Origin: Hungatella sp.
GTDB taxonomy: Bacteria; Bacillota; Clostridia; Lachnospirales; Lachnospiraceae
Direction of reading: 5' to 3'
DNA: 35,927 nt
Assembly (NCBI GenBank): GCA_022795805.1
Contig: JAAWHK010000019.1
Coordinates: forward strand, 1 to 35,927
In this document: piece by piece, positions 8,977 through 33,841 of the stretch
How the letters are laid out: each line of letters opens with the position of its first letter
Numbering within the stretch: the stretch's first letter is position 1
The notes under the pieces: generated by a model
What the model saw: only the letters and a program-made list of their open reading frames with translations
Told to the model about the DNA's origin: nothing
The model's database searches: none
Program-made: the position numbers and the translations under genes

Positions 8977-8977
8977 A

Positions 8978-9406
8978 TCACCACATCCTCCCCGAAAGCA
9001 TGGTTAATCTCACAAATGTAAACATTCCGTCCGTCTCTCCTCCTATGTCCTCCTCCAGATCCAAAAGGGGGCGGTCGTCCAGGAATATCCGGTATATACC
9101 GTCCTCAAAGCACTGGATGGCATTGTCACAGGCCTCCTTTAAATCCGCCTCCTTCTCCCCGTAGAGAACTCCAAAGGCCACTTTCCCCGTTTCCGCCTTA
9201 TCCTCGATCTCCTGCCTGGTAAGGCATCTGAGAACCTCCTGCAAATCCCCGTCTTTAAGTTTGTCATTGTAATCCCGGACCCCTGCCTCCACCACCGCAA
9301 GTATCAGCTCCCTCACAGTGGAAGGGGCCGTAAAAAGGCGGCAGACAACAGGCTCCACGGATTTCCTCCGTCTGCCCATGTGTTTTACGTTGACCCTTAT
9401 GTCCAT
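8978..9406 (-). CDS. Small partner protein of the DUF4132 protein, unknown function
   Basis: This 142-residue protein is not recognised by name. It begins MDIRVNVKHMGRR, followed by a helix-rich middle (VRELILAVVEAGVRDYNDK) and a second half with short strands and turns. It ends in a hydrophobic strand, FVRLTMLSGRMW. The strand-helix-strand order and the closing LTMLSGR strand make a beta-grasp-like fold thinkable, but that is a guess. A strong ribosome site (AAAGGAG) lies 6-7 bases before the start, and a near-consensus promoter lies upstream. Only one base separates it from the 1716-residue gene, so the two proteins probably act together. Confidence 0.8.
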   Translation of the reverse strand: MDIRVNVKHMGRRRKSVEPVVCRLFTAPSTVRELILAVVEAGVRDYNDKLKDGDLQEVLRCLTRQEIEDKAETGKVAFGVLYGEKEADLKEACDNAIQCFEDGIYRIFLDDRPLLDLEEDIGGETDGMFTFVRLTMLSGRMW

Positions 9407-9481
9407 AACTTCTCCTTTGCACTGTTATCAGAAATCAGCCGTTTTGTAAGCGTTTTCCCACATAATCATCCCGCTTCTTTC

Positions 9482-9510
9482 ATTATACGCATTCTCCGGA
9501 CATATCTCAA
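9482..9510 (-). promoter_or_regulatory. Promoter of the 142-residue / DUF4132 operon
   Basis: On the minus strand TTGAGA (9510-9505) and a perfect TATAAT (9487-9482) are spaced by 17 bases. The start of transcription is expected near 9475, giving a leader of about 70 bases before the first gene. A strong constitutive-looking promoter argues that this pair is a housekeeping or standing system, not a tightly repressed one. Confidence 0.8.
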
Positions 9511-9616
9511 CCGGATTTTCTTCGGAATACATGCAGACCCTGCAGCGATTGTCAGGAATCCCCGGAAAATGTATATGGACATATAGGCTCCTGAACTGAG
9601 CCGATATACAGACACA

Positions 9617-9668
9617 CAAAAAACCCCTGAAATCCCGGCACTTAATCTAAGTTCCGATATTCCAGGGG
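9617..9668 (-). terminator. Rho-independent terminator after the tRNA pair
   Basis: On the minus strand a CCCCTG.AAT arm pairs with ATT.CAGGGG across a mid-stem CGG/CCG segment, followed directly by TTTTTT. It lies about 12 bases after the end of tRNA-Gly and separates the tRNA transcript from the next promoter at 9510. Confidence 0.8.
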
Positions 9669-9679
9669 AAATCTCCAAA

Positions 9680-9750
9680 AGCACGTGATGGGAATCGAAC
9701 CCACCTCTCCAGCTTGGGAAGCTGGCGTTCTACCGATGAACTACACATGC
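9680..9750 (-). tRNA. tRNA-Gly (anticodon CCC)
   Basis: A full cloverleaf can be drawn. The acceptor stem is GCATGTG with CACGTGC (one T-G wobble). The anticodon stem is CCAGC/GCTGG around the 7-base loop TTCCCAA, placing CCC at positions 34-36, and the T-arm is GTGGG-TTCGATT-CCCAT. The discriminator base is T and no CCA end is encoded. It reads GGG codons only. It is transcribed directly after tRNA-Glu, 7 bases apart. Confidence 0.93.
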
Positions 9751-9757
9751 ACGCGAA

Positions 9758-9829
9758 TGACCAATCCGGGAATCGAACCCGGGTTTACGCCGTGAGAGGG
9801 CGTCGTCTTGACCGCTTGACCAATTGGCC
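9758..9829 (-). tRNA. tRNA-Glu (anticodon CTC)
   Basis: The acceptor stem is GGCCAAT with ATTGGTC (one G-T wobble). The anticodon stem is ACGCC/GGCGT around CTCTCAC, giving anticodon CTC, and the T-arm is CCCGG-TTCGATT-CCCGG. The discriminator base is A and CCA is not encoded. It reads GAG codons. It is first in the two-tRNA transcript. Confidence 0.93.
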
Positions 9830-9847
9830 TTTCCTTAACGCTTTCAT

Positions 9848-9876
9848 AGTATAGCACGGTTTCCGGGAATTGGCAA
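9848..9876 (-). promoter_or_regulatory. Promoter of the tRNA-Glu/tRNA-Gly transcript
   Basis: On the minus strand TTGCCA (9876-9871) and TATACT (9853-9848) are spaced by 17 bases, with an A/T-rich stretch immediately upstream (9880-9905) that could act as an UP element. Transcription should start near 9841, about 12 bases before mature tRNA-Glu. Confidence 0.85.
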
Positions 9877-9912
9877 GTCTTTTTTTGCAATTTTTTATTT
9901 TTTTATTTGCCG

Positions 9913-10959
9913 TCACGTCTCTATATAGGGAATGCTGGAAGCCCTTACCTTCCCGGCCAGATAAGCCATGCCGTTCTTTTCCAGAAAATACTTTACGCTC
10001 TCCATCACCTTCCCCTGCTTAACGCCGGGGCCCACCACGATCTCCCGGATGGGCATCCGGCCCAGAGGCCTGCACCGTCTGTCCATGAGCATGTACTTTA
10101 TATAGGGCAGCACGATACCGCCCCGCTCGTGATAGTGGATGTCATAGGCCTCCTCCCCCTCTGCCGTGACAAAGCGCTCCACGATGCGGCACTCCTCCTC
10201 CCCGGCGAATCCCCGGTGCTTAAAGAAGGGGATCAGATAGAAAATCATATCCGACAGAAACTGATTCCCCACCGCCAGCGCCCTGCTCCTGCTGCCTTTG
10301 CTGTAATTCCGATAACAGCTCAGCCCCAGCTCAATGGTGCTGTCCACCAGCTCCAGCTTCCGTTCGTCGTCATAGAGCACGGTCCACGGGATAAAGTCCT
10401 GCTCGTACCCCGAACACACCTCCTGCGCCTTCCTGCCCTGCTCCGCCTGCAGCCTGCCGTACATTTCCTTTCGGATCAGGCACATGCCGGGAATGGAGCT
10501 GCACCGGTTCCGGTCAAACCCTATGGCTATGCCGCTGTTCTTCCCGTACCCTCTCCACATCTCCAGGGAATCGGAAGCATGGGAAAAGCTGAGAGAAAAG
10601 ATATCCTTGCTGGACGCGGTAAAAAACCCGTCGGACATCTCGTCGTCCAGGCTCACCGCCGCCCTGTAAAGAAATTCCCTCTCCTGGCTCTCCACGGCCG
10701 CCATCTTCCTCTCCAGCTGCCGGCGGAACAGATCCTTGCCGTGAAGGTACTCTGACTTATCGTTCATAAACGCGATATGGGACGCCCACAGCTCCCGATT
10801 CTGCATGATGCTGATAAAGCCGCCCACATCCGTATAGTGATAGACATCCGAATTGCTGATCAGGTTAAACTGGTTGATCAGCAGGGAGATCCCGCTCATG
10901 GGGTTCCCGTTCTCCGCAAGAATCCGGCAGTGTTCCTGATACTCATCTAAGATCGCCAT
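9913..10959 (-). CDS. DUF2971 domain protein, unknown function
   Basis: DUF2971 proteins are soluble, widespread and uncharacterised. Family marks here are YHYTDVGGFISIMQNRELWASHIAFMNDKSEY near the N-terminus, then FSLSFSHASDSLEMWRGYGKNSGIAIGFD, and a later EEECRIVERF segment. These are the usual HYT, LWA, FND-SE, CFS, W-YG and GFD blocks. The open frame extends back to a GTG at 11019. I prefer the ATG at 10959 because AGGGGAG lies 6 bases before it, while the GTG has its GGAG too close. The gene stands alone between YitT and the tRNAs, and no convincing promoter or terminator is visible. Nothing near it suggests a substrate. Confidence 0.8.
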   Translation of the reverse strand: MAILDEYQEHCRILAENGNPMSGISLLINQFNLISNSDVYHYTDVGGFISIMQNRELWASHIAFMNDKSEYLHGKDLFRRQLERKMAAVESQEREFLYRAAVSLDDEMSDGFFTASSKDIFSLSFSHASDSLEMWRGYGKNSGIAIGFDRNRCSSIPGMCLIRKEMYGRLQAEQGRKAQEVCSGYEQDFIPWTVLYDDERKLELVDSTIELGLSCYRNYSKGSRSRALAVGNQFLSDMIFYLIPFFKHRGFAGEEECRIVERFVTAEGEEAYDIHYHERGGIVLPYIKYMLMDRRCRPLGRMPIREIVVGPGVKQGKVMESVKYFLEKNGMAYLAGKVRASSIPYIET

Positions 10960-11075: not shown

Positions 11076-11924
11076 TTAATCCAGCGGCTTCTGGTAAAAG
11101 GAGCCGATAAACGTCTCCGTCGGCATCACATTGACAATGATGGCGGGATCGACGCCTTTTAAGTGCATCATAATATCGTGAACCTCGTAGGTGGAAACCA
11201 CCGTGTGCAGAAGGCTCATCTTCTTTCCGCTGTAGCCGCCGTAACCTTCCACCACGGAGATCCCGTGGCGGCAGAACCCCACATACTCCTTCACCACCTC
11301 GTGAGGCATCTGGGTGGTGATCTGTAAAGTCACCCGCTTAAACCGGTGGTAGAAATTGTCGATGGTCTTGGTGGCGATAAACTGAAACAGGATGGAATAC
11401 CCGGCGTGCTCCCACCCGAACAGGGCTCCGAAGACGCACAGAAGCCCGCAGTTAAACAGAAACACGTACTGCCAGATGGATTTGCCCAGCCGGTTGGACA
11501 CGTACAGGGCGATAAAATCCATGCCCGCGGTGGACGCGTTGCCCTTCAGGGCCACGGTGACGGCCAGGCCGTAGAGAAAGCCGCCGAAACAGATGTTTAG
11601 AAGCACATCGTCAAAGAGGGCCCCGCTCTTTATCACCTGCAGAAAAATACTGGACAGCACCACCTGGGCCATGGAAAACAGAACGAACTTCTTCCCGATA
11701 TGGCGGTAGCAGAAAAGGGCCACCGGCACATTCAGGGCCACCATTCCGAATGACGTGGACATGGAGATGCCTGCCGTCTGCGCCACCCTGGACAGAAGGG
11801 CGGCGATCCCCGTAAATCCGCTGGGCAGAAGCTGCACCGGCTCCAAAAACGTATTCATGGCAAAAGCCTGCAGAAATGCCGACACGATCACGGCGGCAGT
11901 CATAATCAGATATCTCTTGTTCAT
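11076..11924 (-). CDS. YitT-family membrane protein with C-terminal DUF2179 domain
   Basis: The protein has 282 residues. The first 180 hold five or six hydrophobic helices, with the family's early motif (FLEPVQLLPSGFTGIAALLSR) and the GNASTAGMDFIALY segment. The last 90 residues are a soluble DUF2179 domain (HGISVVEGYGGYSGKKMSLLHTVVSTYE...). YitT proteins are inner-membrane proteins of unsettled function, suggested to be transporters. The gene starts 20 bases after cutC and is probably on the same transcript. No terminator is visible behind it. Confidence 0.88.
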   Translation of the reverse strand: MNKRYLIMTAAVIVSAFLQAFAMNTFLEPVQLLPSGFTGIAALLSRVAQTAGISMSTSFGMVALNVPVALFCYRHIGKKFVLFSMAQVVLSSIFLQVIKSGALFDDVLLNICFGGFLYGLAVTVALKGNASTAGMDFIALYVSNRLGKSIWQYVFLFNCGLLCVFGALFGWEHAGYSILFQFIATKTIDNFYHRFKRVTLQITTQMPHEVVKEYVGFCRHGISVVEGYGGYSGKKMSLLHTVVSTYEVHDIMMHLKGVDPAIIVNVMPTETFIGSFYQKPLD

Positions 11925-11944: not shown

Positions 11945-12691
11945 CTACTCTTTCACACTCTCCACCAGTTCCCTCACAAGCTCTGCCGACACCCCGTCAT
12001 AGCTCATGGAGAGGCTGCCGTTTGCGATGCTGTAGGACACCCCGTTTCTGACCGTGGTCGGATCGGGAAGCCACGTCTTGCAGGAGCTGTGCACCTGGCT
12101 GATGCCCGTGTACTTTATCAGCTTTCCGGCGTTGGTCCCGTTGACCCCGCTGCCTGCCAGGATCTGGATCCGGTTCCCGAACTCCTCCTGAAGGCTCCGG
12201 ATCATGTCCCGCCCTTCCCAGGCCTTAGGTTTTAAGCCGCTGGTCAGTACCCGGTCCACCCCCATGGCAATCAGCTGCTCCATGGTCTCAAAGGGGTCGT
12301 CCGTACAGTCAAATGCCCGGTGAAACACCGCCTCCCCGCCTCTCTCCCTGATAATATCCACCAGTCTCTTATTTCTCTCCGGATCCGGAGAGCCGTCCCT
12401 TCTCAGACACCCGAAGGCCGCGCCGTCGGCCCCGGCCGCCAGAACCTCCCTGCATTCCCGCTCCATAACGGCAAACTCCTCCTCCAGGTAGCAGAACCCG
12501 GCGCCTCTGGGCCGCACCATGGCGATCACCTTCAAGTCCAGATTTTCCTTCACCATGCTGACCACCGCAGCCGTGGGCGTCAGCCCTCCCAGCATCAGCG
12601 CCCCGTTCAGTTCGATCCGCCCGGCGCCGCCCAGCGCCGCCTGCTTCGCGTCGTAGTAGCTTCCGCAGCAAATCTCCGCGACCACACCCAT
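11945..12691 (-). CDS. cutC: CutC family protein
   Basis: CutC is a TIM-barrel protein first linked to copper tolerance in E. coli; its biochemical activity is unsettled. The 248-residue form starts at the ATG at 12691, which has GGAGGAGAG 3 bases upstream and begins with the family's MGVVAEICCGSYYDAKQAALGGAGRIEL-type opening. An in-frame upstream start at 12727 adds 12 low-quality residues and is not favoured. Conserved segments include LTPTA, VMVRPRGAGFCY-like MVRPRGAGF, and the TSG...LAGSGVNG barrel end. It follows the M20 peptidase by 138 bases, with a possible terminator between. Its place beside a glycosylasparaginase and a PTS hints at a role in sugar or glycoprotein breakdown instead of copper (inference). 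Confidence 0.9.
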   Translation of the reverse strand: MGVVAEICCGSYYDAKQAALGGAGRIELNGALMLGGLTPTAAVVSMVKENLDLKVIAMVRPRGAGFCYLEEEFAVMERECREVLAAGADGAAFGCLRRDGSPDPERNKRLVDIIRERGGEAVFHRAFDCTDDPFETMEQLIAMGVDRVLTSGLKPKAWEGRDMIRSLQEEFGNRIQILAGSGVNGTNAGKLIKYTGISQVHSSCKTWLPDPTTVRNGVSYSIANGSLSMSYDGVSAELVRELVESVKE

Positions 12692-12757
12692 AATCTCTCC
12701 TCCGTTCCCCGGCCCCGGGCCGGACAAATCATCTTAAAAAACTTCCCGTCCATCTCC

Positions 12758-12809
12758 AAAAGCTTCCCTGCCTGCCCCAGGCAGCGCCTGAGCTTCAGGA
12801 AAGGGAAGC
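12758..12809 (-). terminator. Possible weak terminator or attenuator between the M20 peptidase and cutC
   Basis: On the minus strand GCTTCCC (12809-12803) pairs perfectly with GGGAAGC (12768-12762), followed by TTTT. A second hairpin, CAGGC-GCT-GCCTG, sits in the loop. The T-run is short, so read-through into cutC-yitT is likely. Confidence 0.4.
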
Positions 12810-12829
12810 CCCCGTAAGTTACGATTTTA

Positions 12830-13930
12830 TCACAGATTTCCCAGCCGGTACAGCCCCAGAGCGTAAATTTTCGCGTTCTTCATCAGGTCGTCCACAGCCA
12901 TCCACTCGTTGGGGTTGTGTCCGATGCCTTTCTGGCCCGGAAAGCTGGGACCGAATGGCACGATGCCCGGCATCGCCTTGGCATAGGTCCCCCCCGTGGT
13001 GGTGACAGGCGCTCCCGGGACGCCGCTCACCTTCTCATAGCACTCCGTCAGCGCCTTAACCATGGGACCGTCCTTTTCAAACACCACCGGGTTGTAGTTC
13101 TGAACCAGCTCCACGGCAAGCCCGGCCGCTTTTTTCCGGATCCGTTCCAGAATCGCCCCGATGCCGCAGCCGGCCGGATAGCTTAGGGATGCCTCAAAAC
13201 AGGGTGTCCCCTCCCGAACCTCCAGCTTGTAGTTCCGCATCTCCATCACGCCGTACTCCTCATGGGAAAAATCGATGCCCAGTCTGTCCCCCGTATTCTT
13301 CGCACCTATAAAGTACTCCGTGACGAACCCAAAGAACGGTTCCAGCTGCCCGCCTTTGACCCGGATTACGGCCCTGCCCCGCTCACTGTACACCACCGGG
13401 AACTTGCAGTCCGGCGTAAAGCCCCAGACCGGCGGTTTCTCCCGCTGCAGATAGTATTTCAGATCCTCAAACCCGGACTCCTCATCGCAGCCGAAGATGA
13501 TCCGGATCCTGTGCTTCGGCTTATATCCCAGATTTTTTAAGGCATAGAGCCCGTAGAGGCAGGTCATAATGGGTCCTTTGTTGTCCAGAACGCCTCTGCT
13601 GTAAATAATCCCGTTCTCCGTATAGCCGGAGAAGGGCGGCTGCCTCCACCCGTCCCCCACAGGCACCACATCCACGTGGCCTATGGCACAGACATAGTCT
13701 TCCCCCTGGCCGTACTCCGCATAGCCGATGTAGTTGTCCATATTCACCGTGGAGAAACCAAGCCTCTCCCCCAGCTCCAGCGCCTTCACGAGAGCCGCCT
13801 TCACCCCCGGGCCGAAGGGCGCCCCGGGCTCCGGGGCCGCCTCCACGCTGTCGATCTTCACCAGTTCCAGGATCGCCTGGAGCATCTCCTCTTTCAGGCT
13901 CTCCACCGCGCCCAGAATCTTTTCCTCCAT
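12830..13930 (-). CDS. M20 family dipeptidase (Sapep/PepV type), short form
   Basis: This is a predicted zinc dipeptidase acting in the cytoplasm. Metal and catalytic motifs are GHVDVVPVGDGW (His85, Asp87), GVLDNKGP (Asp116), GCDEESG (Glu150/151), FTPDCKFPVVYSERG (Asp174) and a late GHNPNEW with the last His. These match the PepV/Sapep branch of M20. At 366 residues it is about 100 shorter than typical PepV or Sapep (about 470). The loss lies in the lid domain between residues 190 and 270. A smaller lid could alter which peptides fit. It is 26 bases from the glycosylasparaginase-like gene, in one operon, so it may split the peptide bond of an imported glycosylated dipeptide (inference). Confidence 0.88.
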   Translation of the reverse strand: MEEKILGAVESLKEEMLQAILELVKIDSVEAAPEPGAPFGPGVKAALVKALELGERLGFSTVNMDNYIGYAEYGQGEDYVCAIGHVDVVPVGDGWRQPPFSGYTENGIIYSRGVLDNKGPIMTCLYGLYALKNLGYKPKHRIRIIFGCDEESGFEDLKYYLQREKPPVWGFTPDCKFPVVYSERGRAVIRVKGGQLEPFFGFVTEYFIGAKNTGDRLGIDFSHEEYGVMEMRNYKLEVREGTPCFEASLSYPAGCGIGAILERIRKKAAGLAVELVQNYNPVVFEKDGPMVKALTECYEKVSGVPGAPVTTTGGTYAKAMPGIVPFGPSFPGQKGIGHNPNEWMAVDDLMKNAKIYALGLYRLGNL

Positions 13931-13956
13931 ATCCTCATCCCTTTCCGGATAATCCT

Positions 13957-14913
13957 CTACTCCTCCACCGGGGCCATGCGCGTCCTCATGTAATCATCCA
14001 GCCACTCCCCGGACGCTTCCTCAAAGGTGCAGTGTCCGTCCGCCCCCCGCTTTACCAGGTACACCCTGGGCCGCTGCCCCTCTGCGGCCGCCACAAAGGA
14101 AAACCCCTCAATATTGGTGGCAGCGCCCCACTGTCCCTCCCGGTTCATGGCGATAAGGGACAAGTCCCCGGCTTTCCCCCGCCTTTCCTTCAGCTCCTTA
14201 TCCAGCAGGTTCACCGCCCTCTCACAGGCCTCCTGGGGATGGAGCCCCTCCTTCATCAGACGCACGATCTCATAGGAAATGCACCCCTTCATCAGGTCCT
14301 CGCCGAGACCTGTGGCGCTGGCGCCGCCCACCTTGCTGTCCGCGTAGAATCCCGATCCCACGATGGGGGAGTCTCCCACCCGTCCTTTCTTTTTCATGAA
14401 CAGCCCGCTGGTGGAGGTGGCTGCCGTCACCTTTCCGTTCCCATCCAGGCACACCATTCCCACCGTATCATGACCCGCGTAGGGTTTTAACTCCTGCTGT
14501 GCCACTTCCCGCTGCCTTTTGCGATAGAAGGCCTTTGCCCTGTCCGTCAGCATATTCTTCCGCTCGAACCCTTCCTTGTGGGCAAACTTCTCCGCCCCCT
14601 CGCCCACCAGCAGATTGTTCACCGGCTCCTGGCTGAGACGCCTCGCGATGGACACCGGGTTGGCGTAATCCCTGACAGCCGCCACGGCGCCTACGGACAG
14701 CGTATCCCCGTCCATGTAAGCCGCGTCCAGCTCCACCTCCATCTCCTCATTGGGCAGGCCGCCGTAGCCCACGGACTTGTAGTACGGGAAATCCTCCACC
14801 TCCCGGATGGCCGCCTCTACGGCATCCCCGGCACTCCGGCCCTGCATAAGCATATCACAGCCCTTCTCAACCCCCTCCAGAGCCATTCTCCATGTCGCGA
14901 TCATTCCCCACAT
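13957..14913 (-). CDS. Glycosylasparaginase-type Ntn hydrolase, N4-(beta-N-acetylglucosaminyl)-L-asparaginase family
   Basis: This family makes an inactive precursor that cuts itself before a threonine, which then becomes the nucleophile. It removes the sugar-linked amide from asparagine, or acts as an isoaspartyl peptidase. The cleavage site is GHDTVGMV with Thr150. Downstream are the family blocks TSTSGLFMKKKGRVGDSPIVGSG and YADSKVGGASATGLGED. The GRVGDSP and ATGxGE elements favour the glycosylasparaginase branch over plant-type isoaspartyl peptidases. There is no signal peptide, so it should act in the cytoplasm, unlike the lysosomal or secreted relatives. It has 318 residues, full length. 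It follows the GrdB-like gene by 18 bases. In a PTS operon with no phospho-beta-glucosidase it is the best candidate for the key hydrolase. Confidence 0.9.
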   Translation of the reverse strand: MWGMIATWRMALEGVEKGCDMLMQGRSAGDAVEAAIREVEDFPYYKSVGYGGLPNEEMEVELDAAYMDGDTLSVGAVAAVRDYANPVSIARRLSQEPVNNLLVGEGAEKFAHKEGFERKNMLTDRAKAFYRKRQREVAQQELKPYAGHDTVGMVCLDGNGKVTAATSTSGLFMKKKGRVGDSPIVGSGFYADSKVGGASATGLGEDLMKGCISYEIVRLMKEGLHPQEACERAVNLLDKELKERRGKAGDLSLIAMNREGQWGAATNIEGFSFVAAAEGQRPRVYLVKRGADGHCTFEEASGEWLDDYMRTRMAPVEE

Positions 14914-14931
14914 AAAACATTCTCCTTTCCT

Positions 14932-15456
14932 CTAAAAGCAGACTTCCCGTCTCAGTTTCTCCAGATCCCCGCTCCCCTCCGCGAGGGCTTTTGCCACGCG
15001 GCACATATTTTTCAGGGAATCGTTAAGCCCCATGCCGCCCTTTTTCGGCGTCTTCACAATCATCACCTTGTCGCGGTAATCGGAAATCACGTCCTCGTTC
15101 TCCTGGGACATGGCCGCAAATGCCCGGCTGTCCCCGTTTCGGTTGATATCCGCCGCCACCTTGGCGCACATGGCCGCGTATTCCGCATAGTTAAAGGCAG
15201 GCCCGCAGATAACCACATCCGGCTTAAGCTTCTTCACCATGGCACACAATTTCCTGCTGACCTCCTCAGGGTTCTCCATGTACGTGCCGTTGCCGCAGCA
15301 GAGGCACGCCATCACATGGCCGTCAATCTCCTTCAAAAACGGCTGCATCATCACGGCAGGCCCCACGGCCTCCTTCTTGCCTGTGAGAGGAACCATCCTG
15401 TCGTCCTTCGTCCCAAGGCCGGACTGAATCTGATCAAAAATCATCACAATCTTCAT
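14932..15456 (-). CDS. GrdB-related protein, N-terminal half only (glycine/betaine reductase component B-like)
   Basis: The 174-residue protein resembles the N-terminal half of GrdB, the selenoprotein B subunit of glycine, sarcosine and betaine reductases. It has the opening MKIVMIFDQIQSGLG, a central VGPA segment, MACLCCGNGTYMENPEE (GrdB has ICGDNYF.EN at this place), KLKPDVVICGPAFNYAEYA, and a C-terminal GGMGLNDSLKNMCRVAKAL. It stops before the region that carries selenocysteine in GrdB. The stop codon is TAG, and a ribosome site for the next gene follows, so this is not a misread UGA. Cysteines 51, 53 and 54 could be redox active (inference). The gene is 20 bases after EIIC and 18 before the glycosylasparaginase, so it belongs to the PTS operon. 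Its reaction is unknown. Confidence 0.8.
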   Translation of the reverse strand: MKIVMIFDQIQSGLGTKDDRMVPLTGKKEAVGPAVMMQPFLKEIDGHVMACLCCGNGTYMENPEEVSRKLCAMVKKLKPDVVICGPAFNYAEYAAMCAKVAADINRNGDSRAFAAMSQENEDVISDYRDKVMIVKTPKKGGMGLNDSLKNMCRVAKALAEGSGDLEKLRREVCF

Positions 15457-15476
15457 AATTTACCCTCCCAATCTTT

Positions 15477-16808
15477 CTACAGGTCGTCAAAGGACAGATC
15501 GTCCAGGGAGATATCGTCGTCCTCCGCCTGCTCCACAACCTTCGTCTCGTCCGCCAGGTACTGCTTATCCATCATCTTGATGAAAGGCATGTAGACAAAT
15601 ACGCCCAGCACCAGCAGAAGCGCCTGGAGCACGGATCCCTGCCATCCGGTAGCCAGAAATCCCGACACGATAACCGGCATGGTCCAGGGGATCGCAACGC
15701 CCGTACACAGCGGAACCAGCCCGATGCTCATGCAGATGTAGGAAATGATAATGTTGATGGTCGGAACCAGCATAAACGGAATCAGCATCAGCGGATTCAG
15801 AAGAATCGGCAGACCGAAGATAATCGGCTCGTTGATGCCGAAAATACCCGGAACCAGCGCCAGCTTACCCAGCTCCTTCACCCGCTTGGAGCGGCAGAAC
15901 AGCAGCATGGCAATCAGAAGGGACAGCGTGGATCCTGCGCCGCCGAAGGTGGCGAACAGATCCTGGAACTGCTGGCAGATAATGTTTGGCATGGCCTGCC
16001 CCGCCTGGAGAGCCGCCAGGTTCTCCGCCGACAATGTCTGCAGAATGGGATTGAACACCGCTCCCACCACCGAACCGCCGTTGACCCCGAAAAACCAGAA
16101 AAAGTGGAGGAAAATGTAGGCGATAACCATGGCCGGCAGCGTATTGCCAAGCTTTAACAGCGGTGTCTGCAGGATAACGAACACGAAGTTAAACGCATTC
16201 TCAAAGGGCGTCATGGCAAACACGAAGTTGATGACAAAAAATACCGTGAGGGACACGCCCGCCGGGATCAGTGCCGCGAAAGACTTCTCAACCGTAGGCG
16301 GAACGCCGTCGGGCATCTTGATGACCCAGCCCTTCTTATCCACCCAGGAGTAGATGTGCACCGCCGCAAAGGCGCATATGATTCCCACAAAAATCCCCTT
16401 GGAGCCCACCCAGCCCAGGGGGATTCCCGTCACCACCTGGTCGTTAAACACGATCTCATAGGGCATGATCAAAAACCAGCTTACCAGGGAGATGGCCGCT
16501 CCGAACAGCCGATCCACCTTCATCTGCTCCGCAAAGGAATATCCGATTCCGATCACGGCCAGGACCGCCATGATGGAAAACGTGGCATCCGTCGGTTTGG
16601 AGAAGTAGGAAGCCCAGTTTTCGCCGAAAAACCTGGCCCAAAACTCGGTCCACCCCGGGATGGGGAAGTTGGCGATCAGCAGGAAAAAGGAACCTACAAT
16701 CAAAAGCGGCATGGACAGCAGAAATCCGTCGCGGATTGCGATAAGATACTTATTTCTTCCGATTCTTTCAGCCAGCGGCATGAAAAACTTCTCTAATTTA
16801 TCTAACAT
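15477..16808 (-). CDS. PTS sugar permease EIIC, lactose/cellobiose family
   Basis: This is the membrane channel of a phosphotransferase transporter. It has 443 residues with 8-10 hydrophobic helices. It opens with the family's MLDKLEKFFMPLAERIGRNKYLIAIRDGF-type segment and includes FFGVNGGSVVGAVFNPIL, FGGAGSTLSLLIAML and GIFGINEPIIFGLPILLNPLMLIPF, all typical of LacE/CelB/ChbC channels. The C-terminus is acidic (EDDDISLDDLSFDDL). Lac/Cel-family permeases carry lactose, cellobiose or diacetylchitobiose, and the sequence alone does not fix the substrate. The neighbours suggest an N-acetylglucosamine-type conjugate (inference). Separate EIIA and EIIB genes lie upstream. Confidence 0.95.
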   Translation of the reverse strand: MLDKLEKFFMPLAERIGRNKYLIAIRDGFLLSMPLLIVGSFFLLIANFPIPGWTEFWARFFGENWASYFSKPTDATFSIMAVLAVIGIGYSFAEQMKVDRLFGAAISLVSWFLIMPYEIVFNDQVVTGIPLGWVGSKGIFVGIICAFAAVHIYSWVDKKGWVIKMPDGVPPTVEKSFAALIPAGVSLTVFFVINFVFAMTPFENAFNFVFVILQTPLLKLGNTLPAMVIAYIFLHFFWFFGVNGGSVVGAVFNPILQTLSAENLAALQAGQAMPNIICQQFQDLFATFGGAGSTLSLLIAMLLFCRSKRVKELGKLALVPGIFGINEPIIFGLPILLNPLMLIPFMLVPTINIIISYICMSIGLVPLCTGVAIPWTMPVIVSGFLATGWQGSVLQALLLVLGVFVYMPFIKMMDKQYLADETKVVEQAEDDDISLDDLSFDDL

Positions 16809-16855
16809 AATATAGCCCCCCTAATCAAATTCCTCGCGCTCACTTTGCCGCGCTC

Positions 16856-17179
16856 TCACTTCTTCGCTTCCTTCATCATCTTCACGGCCGTCTTTAAGAC
16901 CTTCTCCCCATCCATCATCCCGTAGGCTGTCTGGTCGATGACCGCGATGGGAATCCCGGTGGAGCCGTACTGCTTTACCACCTCCTGGAACCTGTGCTTC
17001 ACCTGGGGCCCCAGAAGAATCACATCCGGGTGCCGCTCCTCAATGATCTGACCGATCTTTCCGTCGGAAAAAGCCTCCACCTCAATGGGAAGCCCGTGAG
17101 CCTGGGCCACACCCTGCATCTTGCTCGCCAGCATACTGGTGGACATCCCCGCGCTGCAAAATAAATATACTCTCTTCAT
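16856..17179 (-). CDS. PTS EIIB component, lactose/cellobiose family
   Basis: A 107-residue cytoplasmic phosphocarrier that passes phosphate to the sugar entering through EIIC. It begins with KRVYLFCSAGMSTSMLASKM, where Cys8 is the phosphorylation site in the family's P-loop. DVILLGPQVKHR and the GxxIPIAVID strand follow. A GTG sits one codon upstream; the ATG at 17179 is better placed, with AAAGGAG 7 bases before it. It lies 25 bases after EIIA and 47 before EIIC. Confidence 0.95.
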   Translation of the reverse strand: MKRVYLFCSAGMSTSMLASKMQGVAQAHGLPIEVEAFSDGKIGQIIEERHPDVILLGPQVKHRFQEVVKQYGSTGIPIAVIDQTAYGMMDGEKVLKTAVKMMKEAKK

Positions 17180-17204
17180 CACCGTTCTCCTTTCCTTATT
17201 CCCG

Positions 17205-17549
17205 TCACGTTCCGCTCTGCCTCATAAGCTTCTTCTCCAGCGCGTCCATCTGCTCATAACTTGCGATCATCTCCTCCGCGATGATCTTGAACCCCTCCGC
17301 GCTCATCAGCTGATCCTCCGCATGGATGAGAATCAGGGAGCTTCCTGCCGGGTCGCCCTTGGCCTCCCTCTGCAGAAGCTCAAAGTGCGCCTCATGGCCC
17401 TTTAAAAACTCCTGCTGTCCGGCCTCCACACACGCCCTGGCGCCGTCAAAGTCCCTCTCTTTGGCTTTGTGAATGGCCTCAATGTAGCTGGAGCGGGCCG
17501 TCCCCACGTTGGAAATAATCTGGAAGCAAGTAATTTCTAATCCTTCCAC
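17205..17549 (-). CDS. PTS EIIA component, lactose/cellobiose family
   Basis: A 114-residue, mostly helical protein that takes phosphate from HPr on His76 in the motif SLILIHAEDQLMS. Asp79 in the same motif is the likely metal ligand of the trimer. The opening ITCFQIISNVGTARSSYIEAI is typical of LacF/CelC. It is the first gene of the PTS operon, with an AAAGGAGGG ribosome site and a predicted activator-dependent promoter about 45 bases upstream. Confidence 0.95.
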   Translation of the reverse strand: MEGLEITCFQIISNVGTARSSYIEAIHKAKERDFDGARACVEAGQQEFLKGHEAHFELLQREAKGDPAGSSLILIHAEDQLMSAEGFKIIAEEMIASYEQMDALEKKLMRQSGT

Positions 17550-17592: not shown

Positions 17593-17621
17593 ATTATATA
17601 TTTAAAAACCTTATTTGTGCA
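17593..17621 (-). promoter_or_regulatory. Promoter of the PTS operon, weak -35
   Basis: On the minus strand a perfect TATAAT (17598-17593) is preceded at 17 bases by TGCACA (17621-17616), only a 4 of 6 match to the -35 consensus. A good -10 with a poor -35, and a palindrome 10 bases further upstream, is the usual form of an activator-dependent promoter. Confidence 0.7.
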
Positions 17622-17724: not shown

Positions 17725-17757
17725 AAAAACAAAAAGAACCCCGCGGCGCGGGATTCT
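17725..17757 (-). terminator. Rho-independent terminator after the LicR-type regulator
   Basis: On the minus strand GAATCCCGCG pairs with GCGGGGTTC across a two-base CC centre (a few pairs open in reality), followed by TTTTTGTTTTT. It lies about 60 bases after the regulator stop and isolates that gene from the PTS operon promoter. Confidence 0.85.
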
Positions 17758-17814
17758 CCTTTATGGGGCGGGCTGCCTTCCCAACTGACTTTCCGCCGCA
17801 GTGTGTCCTCATCT

Positions 17815-19734
17815 CTATTCCACAATCCGCTCCACAAATTCTTCGTAGGAGCACTCCTCCATCAGCCGCTCCAGCTGACGGGGGCTGCCGATGATGCTGG
17901 AGACCCAGTCAAAAAAGATCTTAATCATCCTCTGATCGCCTTCATTGATCGCGAACAGCATCACCAGGCGCACGTCAAAGGTCCCCCATTTCACCGGCTG
18001 GGCCAGCCTGGCCACCGCGATGGTAGACCGGCTGGCGTAGGCCTGAAAGGCATGGGGAACCGCCAGCGCGTTGACGAAGGACGTGGGGCTTAAACGCTCC
18101 CTCTCCAGGACCGAACTCCTGAATCCGGAGTCCACCACCCCCTCTTTCTCCAGCCTGTCGCACAGACAGCCGATAACCTCCCCGGGCGTCCTGCACAACA
18201 AGTTGGGGTAATAGTGCTCCCTGCGCATGAGACGGCCTATATGGGAGGCAAATTCCAGGCGGAACCGATTCTTATCCAGCTTGTTCAGCGCTTCCAGAAT
18301 CCGGGCCTCCGACTCCGAATCCAGAAACACGCTGACAGGCACCGTCAGAATACTGAGGGCATGTTCGATGGGCGTGGTGGTCAGGATCAGATCCGGGGCG
18401 ATCCGGTTCACCTCCGCCTCCTCAAAATAGTTGCTCCTCTTCACGATCTCCATCCGCTCCCTGAACATCTCAAGGATCCGCTTCTCACACATGTCAAAGA
18501 ATGTCTGGTTGTAGGGCATGACCATCATGGCCCTGTATTTCCGCACCGAATTCAGCCTCTCGCTGGCAGCCCCCAGATGCAGGGCCAGAAAACCGCTCTC
18601 CATGTCCGCGATAGTGATTCCCAGCTCCTCCTCCAGAAACCCGGTAATACACACCCCCATCTCAAAGATCAGGGGATAATTCTGCTTGATCTCCTCCAGG
18701 AAGATATCCTCCAGCACCACCTGATTTCTGGCCCTTTCGATAAGACTGTGAATGTGCATCTTAAGTCCCGCCGCCAGATCCTCATCCTCCCGGTAGTCCA
18801 TGCCGAACACGTCCATAAGCCGCACCAGGGAGCCCTCCACCAGACGCCTGGTGTTGAGCCACCGGTCTCCCAGCTTAATGTGGTCGCTGGCGTAATTGGA
18901 CGCTCTCCGCCCCATGATCACCAGGGCAAACATCCCCACCTCCCCCTCCTTCACCTGAAGGTGGAGCCGCCTGGCTATCCTGTCAAAAAAGGTTTTCGCT
19001 ATCTGATACTCGATGGTGTCTCTCAGTCCCGGTTCCGTATCATCCATCTGCACATAATGGCAGGCGCTGATCCGCTCGATGCTGGTTCCCGCATGGACAA
19101 TGAGCATGGGGAACATGGACTGGTGGATGGAGTAGTCGTACTCTTCCAGCACCTGCACGAAGATATCCTTCACCTCGATGAGATCAAAATTCTTGTACAG
19201 ATGGGCCAGCCTGTTCAGATTCAGGAAATTCTCCTGGACCTCGGCCACCAGAAGATCCCTGTAAAATTTCCGTTTCACATGCTCGTCCCCCTCCAGGGAG
19301 ACGCACTCTAAGCTGCGCACCAGTTTTAGCCCCGTGTACGGTTCGATCATCCTTCTGATTCGCTTCAAGTCGTTCTGAAGGGAGTAATCGCTGACATAGA
19401 TCTGGCTCTGCAGCTGAGTCAGGTTCAGCTCCCTGTTCTCAAACAGCAGGCGCTGTATCATGTAAATACACCGCGCTCCCGGCGTCTGGGGAATGTCGCT
19501 GGCCAAAGGGCCCTCCGGCCCCTGCTCTCTCTGCTCCTGACGCCTTATGGCCCGGTATCCCCTGCGCACGCTGGATTCGATCCCCAGTCCCCCGGACTGC
19601 CGGTTCACGGCCTCCACATCGGAGCGGATGGTTCTGTCCGTCACATTGAGAAGTTCCGCGAGCCTGCGGCTGGTCATCCAGTCCCGGCTCTTTGTCAGCA
19701 GCTCAAGGAGCCTTTCCTGCCTGTCGTTCAACAT
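17815..19734 (-). CDS. LicR/MtlR-type PTS-regulated transcription activator
   Basis: The protein has 639 residues. A DNA-binding HTH_11 domain (residues 1-65, RRLAELLNVTDRTIRSDVEAVN) replaces the RNA-binding domain of true BglG antiterminators, so it binds DNA. Two PRD domains follow, with histidines in LIVHAGTSIERI, KMHIHSLIERA and LALHLGAASERL available for phosphorylation by HPr or EIIB. An EIIB-like domain comes next, then a fructose-type EIIA-like domain with His561 (NALAVPHAF). The EIIB-like P-loop reads VMPYNQTFF and lacks the cysteine common there, so that domain is probably not phosphorylated. It is single-gene, flanked by terminators, with its own promoter and the same palindrome found at the PTS operon, so it probably activates the PTS operon and itself. 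Confidence 0.92.
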   Translation of the reverse strand: MLNDRQERLLELLTKSRDWMTSRRLAELLNVTDRTIRSDVEAVNRQSGGLGIESSVRRGYRAIRRQEQREQGPEGPLASDIPQTPGARCIYMIQRLLFENRELNLTQLQSQIYVSDYSLQNDLKRIRRMIEPYTGLKLVRSLECVSLEGDEHVKRKFYRDLLVAEVQENFLNLNRLAHLYKNFDLIEVKDIFVQVLEEYDYSIHQSMFPMLIVHAGTSIERISACHYVQMDDTEPGLRDTIEYQIAKTFFDRIARRLHLQVKEGEVGMFALVIMGRRASNYASDHIKLGDRWLNTRRLVEGSLVRLMDVFGMDYREDEDLAAGLKMHIHSLIERARNQVVLEDIFLEEIKQNYPLIFEMGVCITGFLEEELGITIADMESGFLALHLGAASERLNSVRKYRAMMVMPYNQTFFDMCEKRILEMFRERMEIVKRSNYFEEAEVNRIAPDLILTTTPIEHALSILTVPVSVFLDSESEARILEALNKLDKNRFRLEFASHIGRLMRREHYYPNLLCRTPGEVIGCLCDRLEKEGVVDSGFRSSVLERERLSPTSFVNALAVPHAFQAYASRSTIAVARLAQPVKWGTFDVRLVMLFAINEGDQRMIKIFFDWVSSIIGSPRQLERLMEECSYEEFVERIVE

Positions 19735-19941: not shown

Positions 19942-19978
19942 AACAAAAGGAGAACTTTCCTGTCTACAAAAGTTCCCC
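19942..19978 (-). terminator. Rho-independent terminator overlapping the end of the HPr gene
   Basis: On the minus strand GGGGAACTTT (19978-19969) pairs with AAAGTTCTCC (19958-19949) in a 10-bp stem with one G-T pair, followed by TTTTGTT. The HPr stop codon lies in the loop. A second, weaker hairpin of CGGCCG arms at 19898-19913, with TTTTTT at 19891-19886, could act as a backup and touches the operator. Confidence 0.8.
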
Positions 19979-20221
19979 TGCCAGTGTTTTCAGCTCTTTA
20001 ACCGTCTGCTCCTCCGAAACTCCCTCCACCTTAAACTCCAGAACGTCGCCGCATTTTGCCCTCAGCCTCATCAGTCCCATCAGCTGCCTCATGTCCGCCG
20101 CACAGTCCCTGCAGGCCACGCGGATCCTGCATTCACGTTCCATCGCAAACTGTGCCATATACGCCGCACTTCTGGCATGAAGTCCGTTGGGATCGGAAAT
20201 CTTGTGTGTAAATGTAACCAT
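19964..20221 (-). CDS. HPr-like phosphocarrier, Ser46 absent
   Basis: HPr carries phosphate from EI to EIIA proteins and PRD regulators. This one has 85 residues, the normal size. The active site DPNGLHARSA has His15 in its exact place. At the position of the regulatory Ser46 it has Gln (DMRQLMGLM where HPr has KSIMGVM). HPr kinase should therefore be unable to modify it, and it should not work as a CcpA co-repressor. The start at 20221 has GGAGGAAC upstream. The frame remains open for 46 more codons, but those are compositionally poor and lack a ribosome site. It is cysteine-rich for an HPr (Cys31, 37, 40). It is transcribed alone, just upstream of the PTS regulator, so it may be the dedicated phosphate donor for this system (inference). 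Confidence 0.93.
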   Translation of the reverse strand: MVTFTHKISDPNGLHARSAAYMAQFAMERECRIRVACRDCAADMRQLMGLMRLRAKCGDVLEFKVEGVSEEQTVKELKTLAGELL

Positions 20222-20375
20222 ATGTTCCTCCAGTCGTCCAATCGTTCTCCCGTAAGTACTTCGATTCCCGTGAGCAATGAGCCAAGTGCCTGCACGAGCA
20301 TTCGGCGAATGCCGCGAGGGTTCCATACCCCGTTGCTTGCAGCGGGGTTGTCGGCTCACCGTTCAGATACGTGCC
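20222..20375 (-). other. Structured 5' leader of the HPr gene, possible RNA element or palindromic repeat
   Basis: The roughly 155-base leader holds several perfect hairpins. CCCCG/CGGGG spans 20347-20328 and GCATTC-GCC-GAATGC spans 20312-20298. The stretch GGTGAGCC (20360-20353) can pair either with GGCTCA (20283-20278) or with GCTCAC (20275-20270), so two outer stems exclude each other. No T-run follows, so it is not a plain attenuator. It could be a regulatory RNA or a dispersed palindromic repeat that landed here. I do not recognise it as a known riboswitch. Confidence 0.5.
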
Positions 20376-20381
20376 GGTTCC

Positions 20382-20410
20382 ATTATATCAACAACCCACA
20401 CCTAAATCAA
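20382..20410 (-). promoter_or_regulatory. Promoter of the HPr gene
   Basis: On the minus strand TTGATT (20410-20405) and a perfect TATAAT (20387-20382) are 17 bases apart. The -35 overlaps the stop codon of the upstream binding-protein gene. Transcription should start near 20375 and include the structured leader. Confidence 0.8.
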
Positions 20411-21810
20411 TCGGTTTCGTGTCGCCGGTCATGGAACACAATATCTTCACTGGCGTACTCAAAGGGCCATACAATCTTGTACTCCCCGTTCTGAATCTGG
20501 GCTATGGCCACGGACGCCCACGTGTTGTTATTGTAGTGCCACACCCCGTCCACCTGATGATCCTCGAACCTGATCCTGTCATAGGGCAGAATGATCCTGG
20601 GTCCCCCCGGGAAGGCTTCCCGGATATCCAGGGAAGCCAGCGCGTCCTTTACCGCCTCCCCGTCGTCGGTCCCGGCCTGCTCAAAGGCAGTCTTAAAGAC
20701 CCACACCGCCGTGTAAGACTCCGCCGAATGGCCGTTCATGTCCACGCCGAAGACCTCCCTGAACCGCCGGTTTATGTCCTGGCCTTTGGCGAAATCCGGA
20801 TTCCACTCCACCACGGAGGTGAGGCCTTCACACATGCCTTCCGCTGCCGGTATAAAGCTGGGGTCCGTGAACCCGTTGGCCTTGGCGATCAGTATGGGCG
20901 GCTCATAGCCCTGCTCCCTCATGGTCTTCATCAGCAGAACGGCGTCCGATATGTAGCTCTCCGCCAGGACCGCATCGGCATCAGCCTCCTTCAGCGCCTT
21001 AATCTCCGGCGTCAGATCCGCGGCTCCCTGGCTGTATCGGATCTCCTCCACAATCTCCATCCCGTACTCCGGGGCGTAGTGCCTTGCACACCGGATGGCC
21101 TCCTGCCCGATCATGCTGTTGTCCGCAAAAACCGCGATGGTTTCCACTTTCTTCCCAGTCTTCTCCTCCTGATCCCTCATGTACATAAACATCTTTTCCA
21201 GGTACAGAGAGTTCATTGGACACATGCGGAAAAAGTATTCGTACCCGTGGGTGGTGATACTGTCCACCGTGGAGATGGCCGTGATCATGGGAATCCGGTT
21301 CTCCTCACACACCTGGGACACCACCTCCGTCAGCGTGCTCTGATGGCAGCCCAGTACCGCGTGTACCTGCTCCTCTTCGATAAGCCTCTCCGCCACCTGC
21401 CGCGCCGCCTGGTTGTCTCCCCTGGTATCCCCCCGGACGATCTCAACCGGCCTCCCGCCGATGCCTCCCGCCCGGTTAATATCCTCGGCCGCAAAATCGA
21501 TCCCCCTGAGTATGTTGGTCCCGATGGCCGCATTGTTGCCGCTGAGCGCATATATAACCCCGATGCGGACCGGCTCACCGGTCAGCCCGTAGTCCTGCCA
21601 CTCCCCGCCTTCCCACAGCTCTGCATCCGAACCCCCATCTTGGTCCCGCCTCCCGTCCGGCCCTTCGTCCCTCATCTCCTGTACACCGCCGGCATCCTGA
21701 AACCCTGTCCTGTCCGCTCCCGTCTCTTTGCCGCCCGCTTTACAGCCAGCCGCCAGCAAAATCACCGCGGCCCAGCCCAACAGGCACTTCGCCGCCTTTC
21801 CTGTCTTCAT
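20407..21810 (-). CDS. Liv-type ABC transporter substrate-binding lipoprotein, second copy
   Basis: The protein has 467 residues. A lipoprotein signal ends in LLAAGC with Cys23 as the lipid site, then a low-complexity linker rich in Gly and Asp reaches about residue 75. The type I periplasmic-binding fold follows: VRIGVIYALSGNNAAIGTNILRGIDFAAEDIN, GCHQSTLTEVVSQVCEENRIPMITA, and late MNGHSAESYTAVWVFKTAFEQAG. It is clearly paralogous to the next protein (22005-23387) over its whole folded part, including the last WPFEYASEDIVF. The ligand is likely an amino acid or related polar molecule but cannot be named. It has its own promoter, so its level can differ from that of the first copy. Confidence 0.93.
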   Translation of the reverse strand: MKTGKAAKCLLGWAAVILLAAGCKAGGKETGADRTGFQDAGGVQEMRDEGPDGRRDQDGGSDAELWEGGEWQDYGLTGEPVRIGVIYALSGNNAAIGTNILRGIDFAAEDINRAGGIGGRPVEIVRGDTRGDNQAARQVAERLIEEEQVHAVLGCHQSTLTEVVSQVCEENRIPMITAISTVDSITTHGYEYFFRMCPMNSLYLEKMFMYMRDQEEKTGKKVETIAVFADNSMIGQEAIRCARHYAPEYGMEIVEEIRYSQGAADLTPEIKALKEADADAVLAESYISDAVLLMKTMREQGYEPPILIAKANGFTDPSFIPAAEGMCEGLTSVVEWNPDFAKGQDINRRFREVFGVDMNGHSAESYTAVWVFKTAFEQAGTDDGEAVKDALASLDIREAFPGGPRIILPYDRIRFEDHQVDGVWHYNNNTWASVAIAQIQNGEYKIVWPFEYASEDIVFHDRRHETD

Positions 21811-23387: not shown

Positions 23388-23451
23388 AATGTTCCTCCTT
23401 TTTAAGTACTTCCGCACCAGTCGGAAGCCTCCCTGTTTTAGTCATGCATCT

Positions 23452-33801: not shown

Positions 33802-33841
33802 GATTACCTCCTGGATTAAATGTACATAGTTGTGTGAAGTG

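Follow-up and report, generated by a model that had tools for sequence, protein, structure and literature searches.

A lactose/cellobiose-type phosphotransferase operon with a glycosylasparaginase-type hydrolase in Hungatella, probably for glyco-asparagine utilisation

We analysed a stretch of 35,927 nucleotides from Hungatella sp. (Lachnospiraceae; assembly GCA_022795805.1, contig JAAWHK010000019.1), here called the window, whose minus strand carries an operon that joins a phosphotransferase system (PTS) of the lactose/cellobiose (Lac/Cel) family to a glycosylasparaginase (AGA)-type N-terminal nucleophile (Ntn) hydrolase and a dipeptidase. On the strength of its gene content, we consider it quite likely that this operon serves glyco-asparagine utilisation, with the PTS taking up glyco-amino acids of the type of N-acetylglucosaminyl-asparagine (GlcNAc-Asn). 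The evidence comes from the conservation of the gene set, the residues of the hydrolase and comparison with described systems.

Layout of the operon

The genome carrying the window measures 2.55 Mb and is 78% complete, and the operon lies on its contig C55. Pfam and NCBIfam profile scans of 10 proteins around the hydrolase gene gave the following run:

17205..17549, minus strand: PTS enzyme IIA (EIIA), Lac/Cel family (PF02255, 101 bits; GTG start; His within HAEDQLM)
16856..17182, minus strand: PTS enzyme IIB (EIIB), Lac/Cel family (PF02302, 63 bits; GTG start; Cys within FCSAGMS)
15477..16808, minus strand: PTS enzyme IIC (EIIC), Lac/Cel family (PF02378; TIGR00359/TIGR00410, 458 bits, above both cut-offs)
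14932..15456, minus strand: short GrdB-like protein lacking selenocysteine and limited to the N-terminal part of GrdB (PF07355; NF041545, 248 bits, cut-off 175)
13957..14913, minus strand: AGA-type Ntn hydrolase, predicted self-cleavage before Thr150 (PF01112, nearest solved structures, residues, tree)
12830..13930, minus strand: M20 dipeptidase of the PepV/Sapep kind with a shortened lid (PF01546; TIGR01887, 343 bits, cut-off 208)
11945..12691, minus strand: CutC, TIM barrel (PF03932, 177 bits; ATG start by alignment, TTG alternative at 12727)
11076..11924, minus strand: YitT membrane protein (PF02588/PF10035), 20 bases past CutC

The gene content and places from EIIA to CutC had been proposed earlier by a sequence-only reading of this DNA, and the Pfam and NCBIfam families agree with it. 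Its gaps of 18-50 bases from EIIA to the M20 gene were borne out as well (18-47 measured), as was a longer gap before CutC, which comes to 102 bases or, with the ATG at 12691 as the CutC start, to 138; that start is favoured, with most aligned relatives beginning there. The gene run extends past CutC to YitT, ending at 11076.

Conservation among relatives

A scan of GTDB species contigs returned 266 hydrolase relatives among 359 pattern matches, of which the best 80 were kept. All 80 loci were annotated by BLAST against reference proteins, and counts out of 80 refer to these. Some of the loci are cut by contig ends, and a well-flanked subset of 65, defined by 5.5 kb or more upstream and 4.5 kb or more downstream, was therefore counted separately. 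Within the gene run of the hydrolase, EIIC is found in 62 of the 80 loci, EIIB in 58, EIIA in 57, the GrdB-like protein in 60, M20 in 68, CutC in 70, YitT and a PRD regulator in 54 each, an RDD membrane protein in 38, GH170 in 33, HPr in 12 and M42 peptidases in 11-12; EIIC, GrdB-like protein, M20 and Ntn hydrolase stand together in one run in 59. The corresponding counts for the well-flanked loci are 50 for EIIC, 56 for M20, 58 for CutC and 29 for GH170. Among the hosts are Lachnospiraceae, Clostridiaceae, Peptostreptococcaceae, Erysipelotrichaceae/Coprobacillaceae and one segmented filamentous bacterium, and the closest named hydrolase relatives (six loci, L043-L048, 85-91% identity) are labelled Hungatella or Clostridiaceae. 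No hydrolase relatives were found among viral contigs.

The same gene set also occurs in a genome (G298) that has only the phylum in common with the window, in the permuted order PRD regulator-EIIB-EIIC-GrdB-M20-Ntn-EIIA. Its EII, GrdB, M20 and Ntn proteins are 44-61% identical to those of the window (Ntn 61%, M20 53%, EIIC 52%, GrdB 51%), and among 398 genomes of the phylum only this one and the window's own score above the NF041545 cut-off. Because the same set recurs in distant genomes, the association of these genes is beyond chance. Indeed, a search for conserved neighbourhoods of EIIC and hydrolase had been suggested as a check by the sequence-only reading, and it turned up the shared run across families together with this permuted version. 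In addition, locus L130 has at 7446-10730 a diverged Ntn hydrolase (46% identity) next to a NagB-like gene that scores below its cut-off and a glucose/maltose-class EIIBC; this seems to be a further type of PTS that pairs with an AGA.

The Ntn hydrolase as a glycosylasparaginase-type enzyme

The solved structures nearest to the hydrolase are AGAs (1p4k/9gaa, presumably from Elizabethkingia), which score 200 bits compared with 139 bits for the best other family member. Alignment places Thr150, within GHDTVG, at the position of the autocleavage-site Thr, as had been claimed from the letters alone. Trp8, His148, Asp149, Thr150, Arg178, Asp181, Thr201 and Gly202 are kept in all 80 relatives and Thr168 in 79 of them; the HD-T site, the catalytic Thr and the Arg/Asp/Thr-Gly set are, we assume, the autocleavage and substrate residues of AGA. 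Trp8 aligns with Trp11 of the solved AGA chain and falls in a gap in four of four isoaspartyl peptidases. Furthermore, in a tree of 20 proteins, 13 Bacillota enzymes join three annotated AGAs, apart from four isoaspartyl peptidases, with support of 99/96, although the tree carries a warning that long branches meet. By its sequence, then, the hydrolase is classed as AGA-type and not isoaspartyl-type. This is the type that the sequence-only reading had assigned; an identity as isoaspartyl peptidase was rejected on account of the nearest structures, the invariant Trp8 and the tree placement.

Comparison with described systems

A PTS of this kind is not unprecedented. According to the accessible part of its description, the ega locus of Enterococcus faecalis encodes an AGA (EgaG), Lac/Cel EIIB and EIIC, a dipeptidase and a GntR regulator, together with, in strain OG1RF, an oxidoreductase pseudogene for which selenoprotein B is cited (PMC11160706). 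Combret et al. (2023, Res Microbiol 175:104169) state in their title that GlcNAc-Asn use depends on the ega catabolic and transport enzymes. Since ega already combines an AGA, a Lac/Cel PTS and a dipeptidase, the kind of PTS is itself not new, and the earlier statement that none had been described does not hold. On the portion of the ega description available, the window shares with it the AGA, EIIB/EIIC, the dipeptidase and a GrdB-type gene, but has a PRD regulator in place of GntR, and CutC and YitT (window) and RDD, GH170 and M42 (relatives) are not named there. The megaplasmids of E. raffinosus and E. gilvus, named relatives with an ega-like layout, encode a Sapep of 433 amino acids, whereas the M20 protein of the window is short-lidded and has 366. 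Thus, the window operon is a larger form of the ega kind, with another regulator, a short-lid peptidase, CutC and YitT, to which relatives add RDD, GH170 and M42. Among the literature matches listed, within which subscription journals mostly do not fall, we found no description of this clostridial form.

Other systems share parts of the arrangement. In the alf-2 cluster of Lactobacillus casei, AsnA2 cleaves GlcNAc-Asn, which is an internal intermediate, and is linked to pepV (PMC6960285, as far as accessible). Like the window, alf-2 pairs an AGA with a PepV-type dipeptidase; unlike it, in the account available, alf-2 has import by the MFS protein AlfH, the fucosidase AlfC and the kinase SugK in place of a PTS, and its substrate is core-fucosylated. 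AlfH, AlfC and SugK are absent from the 10 proteins around the AGA of the window, the part of the genome searched for them. The chb operon of Lacticaseibacillus paracasei, in the accessible text of PMC12791066, uses a cellobiose-type PTS with GH170 for diacetylchitobiose, a GlcNAc disaccharide, and in this resembles the operons of the relatives; it differs from the window in that no AGA or peptidase is listed, the accessory is the DUF3284 protein ChbD, and GH170 lies in the operon, whereas the window PTS has no GH170 among the proteins scanned.

A Latilactobacillus curvatus locus (CP117684; AGA-GntR-GrdB-EIIC-Sapep) shares with the window the AGA (53% identity), a GrdB-like protein (NF041545, 233 bits), EIIC and a dipeptidase, but has no EIIA, EIIB, CutC or YitT annotated in 19 kb, and its dipeptidase is full-length (440 amino acids). 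The N-glycan loci of two Hymenobacter plasmids (L131 and L132) are like the clostridial ones in pairing AGA with CutC, which in these plasmids follows AGA directly, the two genes overlapping by 4 bases. They are unlike the window in carrying GH92 and ROK genes (L131 also NagB, MFS and GH18) and no PTS annotated in 19 kb.

A proposed route for glyco-asparagine

From the gene content, conservation, family membership and active-site residues observed here, and from the NagA, NagB and GH170 genes of the genome, we infer a substrate, its phosphorylation, an order of steps and a role for CutC. The Lac/Cel-type PTS would import the N-glycoprotein stub GlcNAc-Asn, and probably chitobiosyl-Asn and short glycopeptides as well, and would phosphorylate C6 of the terminal GlcNAc of the stub. 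Because AGA needs an Asn with free amino and carboxyl groups, we propose that the short-lid M20 peptidase, along with M42 in some relatives, trims the flanking amino acids to leave such an Asn. The Ntn hydrolase would then yield aspartate and a 1-amino-sugar phosphate, which might lose its ammonia spontaneously or with the help of CutC. Where present, GH170, which lies on another contig here, could split the disaccharide phosphate, and NagA and NagB would route GlcNAc-6-phosphate into glycolysis. The sequence-only reading had outlined a glyco-asparagine PTS pathway of this sort, and its core is strengthened by the conservation, the AGA type and the Enterococcus precedent (known from the accessible part of its description); its claim to novelty and its stress on a missing phosphoglycosidase have not survived, and its substrate and phosphorylation keep the conditional standing that they had.

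The window's genome has NagB on contig C8 and two NagA genes on C93 and C113, all above cut-offs, and in one relative (L102) a NagB gene (TIGR00502, above cut-off) follows EIIA. The GH170 gene beside many relatives encodes a MupG-type protein of 360 amino acids; the count of 33 in 80 runs includes three proteins whose family membership was established by Pfam, with PF19200 and PF05913 found in three of three scanned. The window's genome has its GH170 on contig C83, where no PTS is recognisable nearby in the 20 kb read. The absence of a phosphoglycosidase, emphasised by the sequence-only reading, is correct for the 10 proteins scanned around the window PTS, none of which is one; the wider idea that the system has no such enzyme was rejected in view of GH170 in the relatives' runs and on C83. 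The combination of PTS, GH170, AGA and peptidases suggests chitobiosyl-Asn as a further substrate besides GlcNAc-Asn.

Several observations weigh against this proposal. The operon of the window itself lacks NagA, NagB and GH170, and 15 of the 65 well-flanked loci have no EIIC in the run, so that AGA also exists without a Lac/Cel PTS nearby. The trait is patchy, since the hydrolase was found at E <= 1e-40 in 4 of 200 genomes of the window's family, its own included; the draw contained one more genome of the window's genus (G511, 98% complete), which has no such gene. Core-fucosylated GlcNAc-Asn has a blocked C6, at which no phosphorylation is possible. In L. casei, pepV is dispensable for fucosyl-GlcNAc-Asn (PMC6960285, in the part available). 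The annotated loci of E. raffinosus and E. gilvus lack the GrdB-like gene, E. faecalis OG1RF has it as a pseudogene by the accessible description (PMC11160706), and the protein is therefore dispensable. Finally, position 175 of the hydrolase is Lys or Arg in all 80 relatives and Met in three of three AGAs of Bacteroidota and Sphingomonas; it is tempting to speculate that Lys175 might read the substrate phosphate, but the pattern is confounded with ancestry, which explains it equally well.

The dipeptidase and the GrdB-like protein

The reduced lid that the sequence-only reading had noticed in the M20 protein is real. Its 366 amino acids compare with 470 in PepV, residues 191-340 of which are matched by only about 53, so that about 100 residues of the full PepV lid are gone. 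Twelve of the 80 loci offered no M20 between 340 and 420 amino acids long for alignment; in the other 68, with positions set by alignment to 1lfw, His85, Asp87, Asp116, Glu150, Glu151, Asp174 and His338 are kept throughout, and we take these to be the metal ligands and catalytic residues. Perhaps the short lid provides a more open site for sugar-bearing peptides. In operons of the L099 type, two M42 peptidases accompany M20.

The GrdB-like protein has 174 amino acids, covers positions 2-160 of the 347 in the GrdB profile and belongs to NF041545, a family without selenium. A role as selenium-dependent reductase was rejected on the basis of this length and family. Its predicted model is confident (pLDDT 96.6) and matches no solved fold at E <= 0.001, the best rows being a corrinoid-binding protein and receiver-like folds. 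In a single genus, four genomes (L033-L036, about 9-12 kb of each) have GrdB-like proteins with 34-35% identity to that of the window between EIIA and EIIB, in the order EIIA-GrdB-EIIB-EIIC-169-residue protein-GH1-like, the last label assigned by eye, and no Ntn hydrolase is present. The occurrence of the GrdB-like protein beside another Lac/Cel PTS without Ntn hydrolase indicates a PTS accessory role, and by its sequence context it is probably an accessory of this kind and not a reductase. A plasmid search for the protein returned three records, among which only that of L. curvatus has an AGA alongside. The GrdB-PTS operon of L033 lies near a GH2/mannosidase-type gene.

Alternative explanations

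The PTS could instead carry a plain disaccharide, N,N'-diacetylchitobiose or cellobiose, with the Ntn hydrolase and peptidases co-regulated for general peptide turnover. The 458 bits of EIIC as a cellobiose-type permease would fit such a role, as would the GH170 and cellobiose-type PTS that serve diacetylchitobiose in L. paracasei (PMC12791066, as far as accessible) and the L033-L036 operons with their GH1-like gene. We nevertheless regard this as improbable, as EIIC accompanies the hydrolase in the run of 62 of 80 loci from several families, and does so in permuted order in G298, and the diverged Ntn hydrolase of L130 pairs with an unrelated EIIBC and the NagB-like gene.

Feeding on peptidoglycan fragments deserves similarly little credence. 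Here the PTS would take sugar peptides of N-acetylmuramic acid (MurNAc), GH170 would be a true MupG, M20 and M42 would cleave the stem peptide, and a beta-aspartyl bond would be opened by the Ntn hydrolase. MupG, the characterised GH170, does serve cell-wall recycling (PMC6262408, cited in the accessible text of PMC12791066), M42 peptidases occur in 11-12 of the 80 runs, and L094 has an S66 gene (LD-carboxypeptidase family). However, Trp8 and the AGA branch point to GlcNAc-Asn rather than isoaspartyl peptides, EIIC scores as Lac/Cel-type with no MurNAc family match, and in the relatives from Enterococcus and Latilactobacillus, AGA, PTS and dipeptidase stand together with no GH170 annotated in 19 kb.

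The Salmonella fra genes offer a parallel for the use of sugar-amino acid adducts, and an Amadori-type adduct as substrate, for which the general parallel drawn by the sequence-only reading is the one point in favour, is hardly credible, as AGA chemistry cuts a side-chain amide N-glycoside and not an Amadori amine, and the 10 proteins scanned include neither a deglycase nor a sugar kinase.

If glyco-asparagine is indeed the substrate, the sugar-asparagine stub of glycoproteins would be food for many host-associated clostridia, for Erysipelotrichia and for a segmented filamentous bacterium, and a single route would give them sugar phosphate, aspartate and ammonia all together. What is known as a trait of Enterococcus and L. 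casei would thereby extend to further gut flora. In addition, three proteins of unknown or doubtful role would become testable, namely CutC, the short GrdB-like protein and GH170 outside cell-wall recycling.

A possible role for CutC

CutC, passed over in the interpretation offered by the sequence-only reading, shares the run of the hydrolase more often (70 of 80) than EIIC does (62 of 80). Where EIIC is missing from the run, CutC is kept in 12 of 18 loci, or 10 of 15 when well flanked, and in L109 its gene abuts or overlaps that of the hydrolase. The 10 loci whose run lacks CutC, one of which (L080) is on a contig that ends about 60 bases after AGA, all belong to genomes that carry CutC elsewhere, as do the G298 and G430 genomes. 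CutC is thus present in 12 of 12 carriers chosen for an AGA locus without it (the 10 loci plus G298 and G430), compared with 52 of 200 genomes of the window's family (p = 1.4e-7) and 21 of 199 of the phylum draw (p = 2e-11), and within the family in 4 of 4 carriers compared with 48 of 196 others (p = 0.004); these values, with carriers or own genome removed from the baselines, are computed without correction for kinship or genome choice, and with 12 carriers that span several families set against the window's family or the phylum draw they are weaker than they look.

It is tempting to speculate that CutC is a dedicated enzyme acting after AGA, and not a copper protein, which would hydrolyse, or isomerise and deaminate, 1-amino-GlcNAc or 1-amino-chitobiose (as the 6-phosphate in PTS systems) for quick release of ammonia and free sugar at neutral pH. 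We offer this gene-neighbourhood argument tentatively and consider it rather doubtful. The copper phenotype of E. coli cutC is reported to be due to MicL, and CutC, named for copper, may be misnamed. In E. coli, the promoter of the small RNA MicL lies in the cutC region (PMC8216713, in the part accessible). Among solved structures, the CutC model is matched first by CutC proteins; next come phosphate-handling TIM barrels, MJ1099, ribulose-phosphate epimerases and KDPG aldolases among them, with TM-scores of about 0.5-0.7, a likeness that is weak evidence because TIM barrels are common. Counter-examples exist in the AGA genes of Persicobacter and Sphingomonas and in the Enterococcus and L. curvatus loci, none with annotated CutC alongside, and in the G298 operon, which has no CutC. 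Moreover, three of the 70 in-run CutC proteins (L120-L122) have only 29-31% identity to that of the window and may, by sequence, be another subtype.

Should the proposal hold, CutC and GH170 would make the clostridial operon a complete chitobiosyl-asparagine route, the same role would apply in the N-glycan loci of Bacteroidota, and it might hint at the function of CutC in animals. A link between CutC and glycosylasparaginase was not found in the literature searched, outside of which subscription journals mostly lie; one paper that names CutC, N-glycan and asparaginase contains, in its accessible part, nothing beyond a predicted map of the interactions of another protein, and no such link.

Regulation and neighbouring genes

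Upstream of EIIA lie the following features:

17593..17621, minus strand: promoter-like site upstream of EIIA (TGCACA-17-TATAAT, 10/12 matches)
17731..17761, minus strand: terminator-like stem past the PRD regulator (14-pair stem and T tail)
17815..19734, minus strand: PRD regulator (HTH_11, Mga, two PRD and EIIA-fructose domains; profile scan)
19964..20359, minus strand: HPr paralogue, upstream of the PRD regulator (PF00381)

The PRD regulator is the probable regulator of the PTS operon. As a terminator-like stem follows it, the PTS operon may be transcribed from its own start, apart from the regulator; support for the stem is weak, with 8 terminator-like sites observed and 8.4 in shuffles, and likewise for the promoter-like site, with 7 observed and 4.7 in shuffles. 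The HPr paralogue keeps the usual His region (GLHARSAA) and has QLMGLM at the site of the regulatory serine, which we take to be Ser46. In some of the 12 relatives with an HPr-like gene in the run, GH170 sits between that gene and the regulator.

Elsewhere in the window, likewise on the minus strand, two adjoining binding proteins (20407-21810 and 22005-23417) both match PF13458, presumably the branched-chain-amino-acid type. A 1716-residue DUF5724-DUF4132-DUF7737 protein is encoded at 3826-8976 and a 909-residue protein with weak FtsA/PilM-like ATPase matches at 31228-33957. At 27086-31194, an AraC-type response regulator, a sensor kinase and a Peripla_BP_4 binding protein stand in a row, perhaps as a sugar-sensing three-gene set.

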